A stretch of DNA of 64,000 nt from Phlebiopsis flavidoalba (lineage: Eukaryota; Basidiomycota; Agaricomycetes; Polyporales; Phanerochaetaceae): the NCBI GenBank assembly GCA_035772785.1, contig JAOCPU010000006.1, forward strand, positions 248,001 to 312,000. Direction: 5' to 3'. The notes below the pieces were generated by a model. That model did not search any database. It was given only the letters and a program-made list of their open reading frames with translations, and had not been told where the DNA came from. The position numbers were made by a program, and so were the translations under genes. Below, piece by piece: positions 41,950 to 49,302 of the stretch; position 1 is the first letter of the stretch; every line of letters begins with the position of its first letter.

Positions 41950-42145
41950 TGAAGGATCGTGATCCTTCATGATACACCCACTGCAGTCAGTATGTCCGTC
42001 GCGTTACATATTCTACTCAAAGAGTTTCAGGTGCTGTATAACTTACTAGCACCCACCAGGGGGCCTGCACTAATGCGAGCGCCCATATCACCTTGGTCGG
42101 GGGGGGTAGCGACCCCACGTGACTAGGACCCCAGTCACTTTCTCA
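41950..42145 (+). repeat. Left terminal inverted repeat (degenerate)
   Basis: Contains CCAGGGGGCC (42,056-42,065), an 18-base spacer, CATATCACCTTG (42,084-42,095) and AGGACCCC (42,125-42,132), all matched in inverse orientation near 47.5 kb. A 22-base palindrome (ATGAAGGATC-GT-GATCCTTCAT, 41,949-41,970) lies at the presumed outer end. The limits are by eye. Confidence 0.6.
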
Positions 42146-42239
42146 CCGCGATGTAGCCGCGTGTATCCTCATTAGCACACACTTACTGTTCTCTCGCGCA
42201 CCAAATCCTATACTTCACGACTGTTTTTTTATCGAGACT

Positions 42240-45200
42240 ATGTCTGGATGTCGAAATCCGGTAACTTCCAAGTCTATCTCGGTCAACATTGGTGGTAAGG
42301 TTTTCACAACTACTGTCGACAATTCCGCAACGCCGCCGCAACACTCATTCACCTGCGATCTCTGCGGACGAGTAATCAAGCTCTCATCGCCTACCAATCT
42401 GTCATCATTCCAGTCGCATCGCGGCTCCTTAAGCTGCTTATCCCATGCACGAAGGCAGGGCAGTACCAATACTCAGGCCTTCTGGCAATTGCATGAAATC
42501 AGATCAACGGTAAGCTCACAAGTCTGTGGCTGAGATATTCTAGAGCACTTCATTTGCCTCAGACTTTGGTATCCAAGAAATGGAGTCGCAAGCCAAGCAA
42601 CTCCTTTGCCATCAGCAGCACCAACCCGACCTACTACACCTCCACAAGACAACAATCCGCTCGTGTCGCGCCACAGCTAAGCACCGCGCGGCTGAAATTT
42701 GGTCCATCAGCGGACTCGTACCGTGGAAATCAGCGAAGGACTCGATGAGAGATCTCCAGGCGGCTTGCAGTTCTCACTGGATCCTGAGGACGAAACGACG
42801 CTGCAAGAGGACACGCGTGAGCCGTGTCCATGTGCCCTATCCCTTGCGACGCCAGGGTCCCTGTGGGACACCTATGATGTGGCATCGACGAGAAGACTTG
42901 CCGTGGGACTTTGTAGGACTCTCTGGTCCAGACCGGCTCATTTTTACGGTCCAAAACCTGCTCACTTGAACGCGCCTGGAGCGCCGGGCTTGCATGCCCA
43001 TTACGGTGCCAGTGCCTCCCAGACAATGCAAACTCACTCCGAAAATTCATAGAGATCAACACCGTATGAGGCCAACCCAAGTACTCCTATTTGGAATATC
43101 TTAAACCACCGTCACAGCTCGTAGCGGTGCGCCGGGAAAAAATAAAAAAAGGGACGTCTAAAACCTGGACCGAGAGATTAAGTAAAGCTAGCGGCTTAAA
43201 GGTATGTTGACGGAGCGTCCTGCGGCTTTGGCTGAGTCGGACCTGGCGATCCTACTAAAGTGAACCACACAGATCGTAACACTTCAATGTTTTTTTTTTC
43301 AGTAAAAGGATCCGCTTCCGACGTCCTGGCGCCACCAACGATTCCATCTGCGGTATAATGCAAGTAGTTGCTTGCCGAAAGAACGACATTCCTGGATCTA
43401 CGACGGCCTACTGCGCAGGAGCGGCCCATACGCCGCGGCTACCAGGTGCGAAGACAATTATTTCGAAAACTTGAGCTTGCCTCATGAGGCGGCCTTTACA
43501 GGCCCCGGGCGGGGATTTTTCGAAGCCGTGATTCTTTGAGATCGGCTTTATGGCCCAAGCGTTTGGTGGAGGAGCGGCTCTCGTATGCTTTGAGTCACTC
43601 TCAACGGATTCCATATCCTCTACACGACTATTAGTGTCGTACCAATTCATCTTATCCCCGCGACTTCAGCCCTGTATTGGTAAACCCACAGCAAGAGGAA
43701 ATTGATAGAGATAAACATTGATTCTCTCTTTGGTATGAAGGAGGGAAGCCACCGCCGCCATCACAACCACAACCACCACTATCCGTGCTGCCACAGACAG
43801 ACCACCCAACTGAGGTTCCTCACGACGTGCTCGTAGTCGCGGCTCAACTCTGTCATTGAAATATGCCCGGTCATGTGCTGATGGGTTGATGGTGTGTGTC
43901 GCTCTTGAAGAGCACGTGTTTTGTCCGCTACCACCGAGGAGGAGCAATTGCGGTGGCGCGGACGGGGGTTTGTAGAGAGCATGCTTCGAATGTGGAGCCT
44001 TTCATTGGGAAGGGTCTCTAGCCTTGAGTCGATCGAAAGCCTCGCCCATGCTCTACATGACGAGCCGAAGACATGCTTGTTATGGCAAGGATGCTACCGT
44101 GCGTGTTGGCAATTGCGCCCTATGGCCCGAGATGATCACTACCAATGCGACTCCGTTTCTGGTGTCGCCTTCATGCAAGACAGAGACAGGCGATGATTTG
44201 GCAGGATGGCTTCACCAAGTCACGGAAGCATGGCGTAACAATCCAAATGGTGAACAAAGGCACGGGCCCATCTGGAGCCTGGCTAGTGACGAGAGACATC
44301 CTCGTTTCGATTGGCCAAGTACAAGCTCTGTATGTCCGAAACAAATCGGCGGACAGAAACCAGGCTCGGTCAAAAGCTTTGCAAGGGCTGGATGCGGGCT
44401 CAATCGTTACTCTTGGACCGAACGGGTATTAATCGCAACTTGCGATCCAAAGCATATCATCAAGAGATTTGCTACTCTCATGCGTGAATCCAAAGGGGAT
44501 CTTTGTTTGGGATCTCTGTGTCATGCCGTCAGATATATTCGAGGCTCTCCAAATCGCTTGGGCTGTCCGCAGAGAAGGCAGTCCAGCTTTTGCGATTGCC
44601 TGCGGACAAGCAGAATGTACCAAAGGCAGTTCATCTCATACAAGAGCTTGCAAAGCTTCCATCCCAGCCACAACTGCACTAAACCTCTTCACTCCCATCG
44701 ACGGTGAAAGTTCTCAAATATATTCAATTTCTGGTCCAATTTCTTTGGATATCTTCACCGACACCTTCTCCAACGTGCAGCTGGGTCTCTCACCGAACAG
44801 ACTTTCGCAATCTTGTCATATACTCACACCCTTCTCGCGGTTATGGTGGATGCGCCATGGAACCGAGTTTATCACTGGCGCTCTCTATATGCCGACTCCC
44901 AAACAACTATCAAGAATTTTAACCATTCTTATTTGTCCCGCCTCCGAGCAAATTGACCCTAAAATATCAAGCTACACATAATCCTAGAGGGCACCGATCG
45001 ACTCGAGCTCGTGTTTAGTGACTGTCGTACTCAAGATCACAGCTTCGCAATTTTGATATCATTCAACTCTGCCAGAAGCTCAGCATCGGTGCCTCAATCC
45101 GCTTCGTTTACGAACGGAACCCCGATATTGATCGCGGACATCGTAGGCTTAGTCTTCGAGGTGCGCTGGGAGTTGACCACAGCAATCCAAAGTCATGGGA

Positions 45201-47463
45201 AGGTGAAGTTAGAGTGGGAAGTGTTGATGTGAAGAAAACGTGGACCGAAGCACAAGATGAGGTCAATCGAGTCCTGCGAAAATTCTTCGACCCCACCGTG
45301 ACAATGCGCTGGGATCAAATATTTCACGATGACAACAAAGACCTCCTTCGACCGTCTGGAGAGTATGTTGGGGCTACCTACTCAGAAGACGATGCCCCGA
45401 ACAGAGGCTGAAGAGCCTGCCTCAGTCATTCCAGTTTCTTGGCATTACCACTGCTCTCGTTGCCACAGAAGCTACAGACAACATAGCTGCGGGGGTCGAA
45501 GGCCCTCGTGTCCTCGATGAAGAGGCTCTAGCGCAGGAGCAACCATTCGATGACGTCTCTCAGCTATTTAGTACCTTTGACGGCTCAGACGAATATGATG
45601 ACTTACCTGAAGGACTCGACCTTTATTCAGTTCTTCTACGGCACATCACAAAAACTCACGTTCCACATCCCCCGAACCTGATTGTAACGACACTACTCCT
45701 TGCGATTGTACCCCAAAATCATTCGGGACAATCTTCCGAGGAAAGTCGAGACTTGCAGACTACTCCTGACGGTTATCTGCTGGTTAGAGGGAAAGAAGTA
45801 CATCAAGGACTCTGTAGTGACTGCATACCTCACGAGCGGACGGTCGAAGAAGTCAGTTATGCGGGTTCTTCGTGTGTCCGTGGGATGTTCCTTGGAAGAC
45901 TTCCAGGGCAAAGACAACTCGGAACTCCGCCCTGATCTATCCGATGAGGACCTATCAAGTGTAAGGACCTCGCAGCAACTCTGGTGCGCGTAAAGGGCTC
46001 TGTGTGTCTGGCAGTCATAGAGATTGTTGCCTTCGAGAAGCCCGGAGACAAGACTCACCGGACAACATCTGTGCCTTTCGAGGACTTGGAAAGGCGTGAT
46101 TCGGGCATCACCGTGGTTGCGCAGGTGCTCGATATCATTCCCATACTACAGAAGAGTTAGACTCATCTTCAGATTCCGAGGATGACGTACCAGCTACCGA
46201 GGTCGCTACCAATTCAAAATCCCCGCGAGTATCAAGCTGGGTCTGGAATGGAAAATACCTCGTCGTGAACAAGTCCACCACGTCAACTACGCAGTCAAAA
46301 TTACACAAAAATATCCACTTACATCGAAACATCTCGTCGATTATACCTCATCTCCATCGCAGGACACCTAGTACAGCCTCTTGGACCATCGCGTCTTTTA
46401 TACCAATCGAGGAAGTCCCAAACCATGTCCACAACTTGAATCAGGACACTCCAGAAAGCGACGAAAGCAGCGCACTCACCAGTGACTTGGAAAATACCAA
46501 GCGAGCAGCTGCATGAAGTAATGGATAGCGCATGGGAAGCTCTATCATCCGATGCAGCAGGAAGTCTTAGCGAAAAAATATCGCTGATTTTGCCGCCACC
46601 TCGAAACAGACTCTCTACCCTACACTGGTTTAGACGGTTAAGATCAGAATTGGTCAAGACGTGTGTATTACTCAAACCTACCAAATAGGATCCTCACGTG
46701 CCTTGAAAGTGTCAGGTGTTCCCGAGGATCTAGTGGCGCAATCGAAGTATAATGGGCGAGACAGTGTTCCGTGCTTGCTGTTGCGAGAAACAGATGCAGC
46801 ATGTACCGCATGCGAGACCATGTGAGCCGGCATGTCATGCGAAGTAAATCGTGGGAGTCGCGCAGAGGAAGAGCCACTAATCAGACCAGTTAGTCAAGCA
46901 TTCTTAATCGTGTCTAACGGTGATAGTGCTCACCAGTGATAATGCATTGAACCTCCATAGGTTGGGGTCAATCCTTGCGGATTCTGCGGTCTCGATGGAT
47001 GTATCACGTCACTGCAACGGAAAGGGAAGCATTTGATCGTTAAATCAACATGCAAGTACTTTTTACCTGAAAGGGTATACCGCATCGAATATTGCGCCCC
47101 GAAGTCATCAAACTGCACCAACTTGCCTATTCACTATGTATAGCGTGCAAGCCTCTCGCAAATGGCCAGTATCCAACTATCTGGAAGTACAACACAGCAT
47201 ATCATTTGGCCACTCATCACTCACTCGACAATGACGGCTGTCTATCCCTTCCTCCCCAGCTCCTCGTCGACATGCATATACCATACGACGAAGAGGGAAT
47301 TATGGATGTCGATCCGCCTGCTACAGAGACTTACAGAGAGGAATGGAACCTTCCAGGGAGCGACGACGTGGAGAAGATGAGAGAGTCTTTGACTGCCGCG
47401 AAGCGAGAACGAGCACTCTCCGCAGTGGTGAAGGAGCGCAATCCCAAGGCTCGTCGATTGTAG
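42240..47463 (+). CDS. Large multi-copy-type protein of Agaricomycetes, probable transposase-like; degenerate
   Basis: Begins MSGCRNPVTSKSISVNIGGK, then CDLCGRVIKLSSPTNLSSFQ..HRGSLSC (zinc-finger-like, about 42.35-42.44 kb). Then comes GSLWDTYDV (42.86 kb) with DLPWDFVGLSGPDRL in another frame. Next are CYGKDATVRVGN, GEDLAGWLHQVTEAW-type text, HGPIWSLASD (44.26-44.29 kb), FRLAKYKLCMSE, CDPKHIIKRFATLMRES (44.44-44.49 kb) and DKQNVPKAVHLIQEL. EGTDRLELVFSDCRTQDH (45.0 kb), NPDIDRGHRR, ALGVDHSNPKSWEGEVRVGSVDV and KDSVVTAYLTSGRSKKSVMRVLRVSV (45.8-45.9 kb) follow. The last part has MRDHVSRHVMRS, CTNLPIHY, PTIWKYNTAYHLATHHS, VDMHIPYDEEGIMDVDPPA and MRESLTAAKRERAL, stopping at 47,461-47,463. I recall this order from large (1,000+ residue) multi-copy Agaricomycete proteins. 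The SD(G) and CDPKHIIK blocks recall P-element/THAP9-like RNase H folds. Stops and frame slips are frequent. Confidence 0.6.
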
Positions 47464-47499
47464 ACAGAAGTCGCCGTTATCATTATCATGACGTGCTTT

Positions 47500-47636
47500 A
47501 TCTAATCACAAGTACACGGGGTCCTGGGCGTTTCTCACAGGCGCTACTCACAAGGTGATATGCTCGATATCCCTGGCGCTGGCCCCCTGGCACCCACTGT
47601 AATGGATCAGTTGTACCGGTATCATGTATGTGGCGC
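47500..47636 (-). repeat. Right terminal inverted repeat, inner part (continues at 48,680-48,740)
   Basis: Reverse complement of the left repeat: CATATCACCTTG (47,551-47,562), 18-base spacer, CCAGGGGGCC (47,581-47,590). The matching sequence then continues towards 47,636, is interrupted by the LTR element, and resumes at 48,680. Confidence 0.6.
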
Positions 47637-47842
47637 TGGAAGCCCGCCGTGTCGGGGCGGGCAACACTAAGCGGTCGGCACACCCGTCGCGCAAACAGAA
47701 TTGGTACGAGCTCTGTTTGTGCGACGGTCTCGAGGGCGGTACAGGAAAGAACTAAAGAAAAACGACCGAAAACAAGGTTCGTACAAGATGAAGGTCCGAT
47801 TATGTAAGCGTCCCAATCTGGTTGTGACCCAGTCAGGTTACA
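47637..47842 (-). repeat. 3' LTR of the TRIM-like element
   Basis: 206 bases, same sequence as the 5' LTR apart from indels in short homopolymers and the 8-base gap. I see no clear base substitution between the two copies. Flanked on its outer side by GGCGC. Confidence 0.88.
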
Positions 47843-47851
47843 CTCTCCCAC
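47843..47851 (-). other. Polypurine tract candidate of the LTR element
   Basis: Minus-strand GTGGGAGAG directly abuts TGTAAC of the 3' LTR, the position where plus-strand DNA synthesis is primed. No TGG-starting primer-binding site abuts the 5' LTR; the nearest candidate (TGGTGTCCCCGCCG, minus, 48,427-48,440) lies 26 bases inside. Confidence 0.6.
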
Positions 47852-48466
47852 GCTATGAAGAATAAAGTGCAGAGAGTAAAAGAGAAGCACGGAAAAAAGA
47901 GAGAAACAGAATGCAAACAGGCCATAAATGAAACAAATAAACAAAAGTATAGAAATTACTCATGACCCTCCATCCTAAAACGTCAAGCATCTCCAGGTCT
48001 TGCAGCTTGAGGATGAGGAGGCATCAAGCCTTTGGCGCCGAGAACAGGCGCTCTTCGGGCGCTCGATGCGAACGAGGGTGCACGGGGTACCGGAGACGAC
48101 GACGAGCTCGAAAGGGCGTAAAAAAGAGATGGGGATGACTCGCCGGCTGGTCCTACGCTGGGTACTCCCGGTACAGCTGCGGCAGTGGCAATTGGAGCCC
48201 GTTTCGGATGCCTGTTTGGGTCTGGGTCCCAAGGCTTGGTACGAGGTCTTCGAGACGCGCGTCGAGGGCGGCTGTCGCGACTCGCTTAGAGTCGAGCGAC
48301 TTTAACGGGTAGCGTGCGGGTACCCCGGAGTTCTAGGGCTCGTTGGAGAGCTGGTGATGCGAATGATGCAAGGATGGTGTAGCCGTGTACGGAGGACGGG
48401 CGGATATGCGGCAATGCGACAGAGAGCGGCGGGGACACCAGAGCTCGTAGGAAATTCAAAAAAAAG

Positions 48467-48679
48467 TGGAAGCCCGCCGTGTCGGGGCGGGCAACACTAA
48501 GCGGTCGGCACACCCGTCGCGCAACAGAAATTGGTACGAGCTCTGTTGTGCGACGGTCTCGAGAGCGGGGAGGCGGTACAGGAAAGAACTAAAGAAAAAC
48601 GACCGAAAACAGGTTCGTACAAGATGAAGGTCCCGATTATGTAAGCGTCCCAATCTGGTTGTGACCCAGTCAGGTTACA
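48467..48679 (-). repeat. 5' LTR of the TRIM-like element
   Basis: 213 bases, TGTAAC..TTCCA on the minus strand. Contains a 7-base perfect stem GCCCGCC/GGCGGGC around the spacer GTGTCGG, and a longer hairpin around TTGGTACGAG. It carries an 8-base insertion (agcgggga) relative to the other LTR. Confidence 0.88.
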
Positions 48680-49302
48680 GGCGCGAGGGTCGGGCCCCAG
48701 ATCTTCAGAGCCTGGACCCAGTACAGTTACCTGATCCTCCTTTACGACAGTCACTCAGGGTAACACCACATAACTTTCGCTTTGGATCAAGTTTCGGATC
48801 ATTTTTGAGATTATTTGGATTGCTGCGATGTCGAGTTTGGTGCCCATTGTGGGATAGATTGTTGATCTACTCCAGAGGGCTGTATCTGACGCAGATTACT
48901 GCAACACTTACCAGGAAGGTAAGAAGTTCATCGTGTGAAAATCAATGAAAATTGTCGATGTTTGTGTCACGCACGGTGCAGTTTCTATCCAACATGGTTT
49001 AGAGACTCAGATAGATGTAATAGGAATGATAGATGAGCCCGCAGTCTAGCCTAGTGAAGCTATCAGCTTACTGTTTTATGAAGTTAGAAATCCAGAATAT
49101 AGGAACCGACACGTTGTGATCCATCGCCACAAGATTTAGGAGACAGTCGACAAATACTATGAGTAGAAAACATACCCATCGTGCGAAAACCTGCTTCTCA
49201 TATGTATCGTGCCGCGTGCGAACATCAAAGCGAAAACATGGTCGTACCATGACATGAATCGTCCCATCACGCCACGCTCGTTGACAAGTGCAACCACATC
49301 AA

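Follow-up and report, generated by a model that had tools for sequence, protein, structure and literature searches.

A decayed DNA transposon in Phlebiopsis flavidoalba with a gene for a predicted P-element-like transposase

A locus of Phlebiopsis flavidoalba, found in a window of 64,000 nucleotides (the whole stretch of DNA analyzed), is with high confidence a decayed DNA transposon of the cut-and-paste type, 5,533 bp long, the gene of which encoded a predicted P-element-like DDE transposase. The initial annotation had described an unnamed multi-copy fungal protein as the apparent cargo of a DNA transposon bounded by terminal inverted repeats (TIRs), adding that the protein family would be a transposase rather than a host gene family if the repeats held up. 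The TIR-bounded transposon stands; for the protein, transposase is a better reading than mere cargo. Assignment of the family to a DNA element and not to host genes, which the initial annotation had envisaged, is supported by a predicted fold and by catalytic residues like those of P-type DDE enzymes.

Terminal repeats and short elements with related ends

The transposon spans 42057-47589, with CAGGGGGCC at its start and GGCCCCCTG at its finish, and GCACCCAC lies on either flank as a target site duplication (TSD) identical at 8/8 bases. Its ends are built as follows:

42049..42056, no strand: left copy of the TSD, GCACCCAC, same as 47590-47597
42057..42065, + strand: left terminal box, CAGGGGGCC, outer portion of the TIR
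42087..42094, + strand: left inner box, ATCACCTT, element base 31-38; candidate transposase-binding site
47552..47559, - strand: right inner box, ATCACCTT, base 31-38 counted from the right end
47581..47589, - strand: right terminal box, CAGGGGGCC
47590..47597, no strand: right copy of the TSD, GCACCCAC

The end architecture is bipartite, with a CAGGGGG tip and ATCACCTT around base 31. The two words on which the initial annotation was based, CCAGGGGGCC at 42056-42065 and CATATCACCTTG at 42084-42095, are present there and recur in mirror orientation at 47581-47590 and 47551-47562, with an 18-base gap at each end; only their extent needed correction, as the outermost base (C 42056, G 47590) belongs to the target duplication and not to the repeat. 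The TIR measures about 38 bp, and 29 of the initial 40 positions match between the two ends. The best ungapped inverted match of the two 200-base ends scored 19, while dinucleotide shuffles reached at most 14 (n = 300). This comparison had been set beforehand as one that could refute the repeats, and all 300 shuffles were beaten; chance is a poor explanation for the inverted words, as had been claimed. An origin of the words by chance, for which their shortness is the sole point, has a practically negligible probability and is refuted by the shuffles (0/300 reach the score) and by further copies that share these ends and carry duplications. The weaker similarity proposed to extend to about 190 bases was not recovered: past base 40 the top score was 9, equalled in 72 of 200 shuffles, which is not above chance.

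The proposed end coordinate of 48,740 proved too distal. The LTR element at 47637-48679 lies outside the transposon and needs no removal. This small element (window 47632-48684, approximately 1.04 kb) starts 39 bp past the right target duplication of the transposon. Its repeats, 47637-47842 and 48467-48679, start with TG, end with CA, and are 94% identical, with gaps as the sole differences; GGCGC flanks it on both sides as a 5-bp duplication.

Searching the genome with the ends of the transposon retrieved six other places with the left end and nine with the right. Other copies ending at these repeats, on which the initial annotation had made its reading depend, were found with 8-bp duplications in three families of short elements (MITEs) with the same or related ends. 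For two families, searches with one short element from each yielded, apart from end-only matches, 9 copies of ~479 bp and 10 of ~310-350 bp that were examined. With strict ends, the TSD of these 19 copies was 8/8 in 10, 7/8 in two, and 6/8 in one; L068 and L070 display 8/8 given an end shift of 1 or 6 bases (judged by eye on the printed flanks), and no TSD was found at L035, L040, L041, and L069 (4/19). The third family (L045-L048, on contigs C64, C3, C15, and C36; 436-491 bp) has a TSD of 8/8 in all four copies, against a background, without an end condition, of 1 to 4 matches per 4,000 position pairs at each locus. Its two tips differ, CAAGGGG versus CAGGGGG, with an extra tip C in one copy. 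Close to one end, this family has a GTGGGGT..CGACCCCACGTGAC segment in common with the other families.

The inner box was tabulated for the long element together with 13 short copies, picked from the 19 for readable ends. Allowing one mismatch, ATCACCTT starts at base 31-35 in 26 of 28 ends; of the remaining two, the box lies at base 63 in one and is missing from the other. Among 15 insertions (the long element, the 10 strict copies, the two with 7/8, and the two with shifted ends), the first TSD base is a purine in 15/15 and the last a pyrimidine in 11/15, counted without a base-composition control. The short elements have the ends alone in common with the long copy.

The decayed gene and its protein family

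A collinear match to relatives runs across 42276-47460 in several frames with internal stops, and the following motifs are still readable in the decayed gene:

42240..47463, + strand: decayed transposase gene, in several frames with internal stops and frameshifts
42354..42437, + strand: CCHC zinc finger motif at the N-terminus (CDLCG...HRGSLSC)
42852..42875, + strand: GSxWxTY, conserved motif of the N-terminal region
44261..44290, + strand: SLASD, containing the second catalytic Asp (D256 in P0002, D303 in the P element)
44441..44485, + strand: CDPKH motif, corresponding to D339xxH342 of the P element
44599..44643, + strand: PADKQNVPKAV in the helical insertion, aligned to AKQKVKLA of the P element
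44990..45028, + strand: GTDRLE, containing the catalytic Glu (E482 in P0002, E531 in the P element)
46973..47002, + strand: C-terminal cysteine motif PCGFCGLDGC

The assembly yielded no further full-length copy. A DNA search with the gene returned itself alone, and protein queries from three relatives matched only the window locus, two of them also matching a fragment on contig C72; as the search scores only the best candidates, these copy counts are lower bounds. With the sole long copy broken, the ends and an intact gene have never been observed together, which weighs against the favored reading. The fragment, C72:126384-126614, derives from the C-terminal part of the same protein family. 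Within the 3.2 kb read around it, no tip match was found at ≤2 mismatches, and its three two-mismatch inner-box matches are chance-like. Pieces of the window gave no Pfam match over cut-off, and the one piece compared with PDB sequences gave none.

A query joined from frame pieces of the gene retrieved 77 proteins. A profile of 76 of them, leaving out P0016, in which an oxidoreductase is joined in the gene model, gave 331 matches, of which the best 120 were shown. The named members listed are annotated as "hypothetical" or "uncharacterized" proteins and, going by the genera we recognized, presumably all come from basidiomycetes; the four species looked up are Agaricomycetes from four different orders. 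In Daedaleopsis nitida, two family proteins (P0002 and P0003) are 97% identical and encoded on separate contigs. Of 141 relatives, 39 display a CCHC pattern, and short or partial proteins account for many of those without it; the family possesses a long C-terminal part with Cys/His motifs. P0009 (Ganoderma sinense), with N in place of the first catalytic D in an otherwise conserved DG motif, is possibly an inactive copy, judging from its sequence. P0016 (Antrodiella citrinella, 1835 aa) combines a family member and a GMC oxidoreductase in one gene model; the join is probably a gene-model fusion and possibly a real one.

Seven members gave no Pfam match over cut-off, and NCBIfam matched none of 5 relatives. 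With no cut-offs shown, 37 members gave 21 weak Pfam families (best E 0.0033), the commonest being a C2HC finger in 8 of the 37. The THAP domain (PF05485), the TNP-like domains (PF21787-PF21789), and the hATC dimerization domain (PF05699) were unlisted for these 37 at E up to 5. Against PDB sequences, the family profile retrieved two unrelated chains at E about 0.3, with the P element transposase structure 6p5a unlisted at E up to 10. PF21787 had zero matches in the P. flavidoalba genome, as did the controls, so this zero carries no information.

Could the protein be cargo, or a host gene family trapped between the ends of an unrelated element? There is one long copy here, and the short elements share its ends only, which would suit such a reading. 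We nevertheless consider it highly unlikely: the family carries catalytic residues and a predicted transposase fold, 97%-identical copies lie on different D. nitida contigs, and the open frames within the 5.5 kb, those on the minus strand being listed only, brought up no competing candidate gene.

Comparison with the P element transposase and other DDE enzymes

Structural models of relatives predict an RNase H fold in which an all-helical insertion separates strand 5 from helix 4, and the best structural match of these models is the P element transposase (6p5a/6pe2). The probable order of parts in the models is finger, long helix, helix-turn-helix (HTH), and RNase H domain with helical insertion. 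Drosophila P resembles the family in its RNase H fold, all-helical insertion, catalytic D-D-E, DxxH after strand 5, D528xxE531, N-terminal zinc finger, and HTH preceded by a long helix, maybe a coiled coil; it resembles the present element in its 8-bp TSD and in a conserved inner site apart from the tip.

For sequence comparison, a Drosophila P transposase sequence was verified against 6p5a over residues 188-567, and its numbered residues agree with the published numbering (PMC7776569, PMC8230255). A search with the Drosophila protein gave 123 proteins, 120 of them listed, the named ones among those listed being from arthropods. A profile of 44 of these P-type proteins (A3) matched the fungal family profile with probability 94.9 and E 4.1e-8 over 423 columns. 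The core regions alone gave probability 64.1 and score 44.8, compared with scores of 13.5-18.1 for one reversed and eight shuffled control profiles; under a third column rule, the A3 probability drops to 21.3. Sequence similarity between the profiles is weak and depends on the set-up; this weighs against a P-like assignment, as do the unlisted P-type and THAP domains, the unlisted 6p5a, and the GTP-pocket positions described below.

Residues were mapped between P and the family by hhalign, which places D230/D303/E531 of P on D138/D256/E482 of the family. D339, H342, K345, R348, V401, A404, D528, F534, and R538 of P are kept in nearly all family members, and N349 in a bare majority (40/74). No conservation was found for N308, Q527, K400, S409, F443, D444, and N447; K385 is not kept or unaligned (unaligned in one of two alignments), and G541 and P547 are unaligned. 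In all, 10 of 13 aligned positions that are either invariant in A3 or catalytic are shared, N349 included. The P signature has been described as DDE, a [C/D]xxH motif following strand 5, and an Asp three positions ahead of the Glu (PMC8230255, PMC7776569), and all three features are present in the family.

The positions of the animal GTP pocket fared differently, with six of eight lacking conservation and only V401 and D528 kept. K400 is replaced by N in 75/76 and S409 by Q in 64/76, while F443, D444, N447, and K385 lie in an uncertain stretch of the alignment. An equation of family D447 with P D444 was rejected, as neither the spacing nor the hhalign mapping supports it. Because most pocket residues are not conserved, the fungal transposase probably works without the animal pocket and probably does not use GTP as the animal enzymes do.

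Further differences separate the family from Drosophila P. Its finger is of CCHC rather than THAP type, most intact-looking relatives have 1,100-1,500 aa compared to 751, with a long Cys/His-containing C-terminal part, and the TIR of the fungal element is ~38 bp versus 31 bp. The P-type proteins from the Drosophila-query search bear precomputed Pfam TNP-like domains, which were unlisted for the 37 fungal members scanned. THAP9 and zebrafish P share the catalytic signature with the family and differ from it in their THAP finger and animal hosts. Zebrafish P is flanked by 8-bp duplications and occurs as one full-length copy accompanied by short ones (PMC7776569, PMC8230255).

Such differences raise the alternative of a separate DDE superfamily that is sister to P, has a DNA-binding finger of its own, and uses no GTP cofactor. 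It draws on the lack of conservation at K385, K400, S409, F443, D444, and N447, the unlisted THAP domain, the additional C-terminal part with Cys/His motifs, and the weak sequence similarity, whereas the predicted fold and probable part order are those of P and 10 of 13 key aligned positions are shared with it (N349 by 40/74). We regard this alternative as rather unlikely, and the choice between superfamily and branch is partly a question of naming. More broadly, we tentatively entertain, as somewhat short of probable, an Agaricomycete-wide superfamily, sister to P, with a P catalytic core, a CCHC finger, no need for GTP, hundreds of unannotated mushroom proteins, and several MITE families.

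hAT elements likewise show 8-bp duplications and CAGGG-type tips, and Hermes shares with the family an insertion within the RNase H fold. That the element is a hAT with a strongly diverged hAT transposase is nonetheless scarcely credible to us; hATC was unlisted for the 37 members as noted above. Among BFVD viral structures, no convincing match was found, the top one being a Pandoravirus hAT-type protein at E 1.1e-3. KDZ transposons, like the present one, are fungal DDE elements of Agaricomycetes. Kyakuja (KDZ) elements have 7-bp duplications and no TIR (PMC12730594); the present element differs from that branch in its 8-bp duplication and TIR. By eye, no KDZ sequence motif stood out in the family.

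P elements are known from animals. In fungi, the P superfamily elements P-1_PSt, P-1_MLP, and P-2_MLP of rusts have 8-bp duplications and non-autonomous partners, and were presented in 2011 as previously unknown in any Dikarya (PMC3164196). These belong to Pucciniomycotina, in contrast to the Agaricomycetes here, and were compared by description only. In the literature searched, fungal P elements are reported only in rusts (PMC3164196), and no report of one in Agaricomycetes was found, although an entry may exist in Repbase or subscription papers.

Proposed mechanism and significance

Under the preferred reading of a P-like transposon, the CCHC finger at the N-terminus, assisted by a probable coiled coil and HTH, would bind ATCACCTT, the inner box located around base 31 at either end, and the RNase H domain would cut both ends at the tip. 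Integration would then link the excised element to two target phosphates separated by 8 bp, possibly favoring targets that begin with a purine. The MITEs would be mobilized by transposases of this P-like kind; those in the present genome are probably stranded, because no intact family transposase was found in it.

As the predicted structure and catalytic residues of the family match the P transposase, many "hypothetical proteins" of mushroom genomes are probably transposases. A function is thereby assigned to a large unannotated family (331 matches, the best 120 seen) so far catalogued as hypothetical, the P-type catalytic core is extended to Agaricomycetes, and the bipartite ends make MITE annotation possible. 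The family also offers a natural comparison for asking why GTP is required by the animal P element: should a pocket-less relative that shares the core prove able to transpose in the absence of GTP, the cofactor's role would become directly testable.
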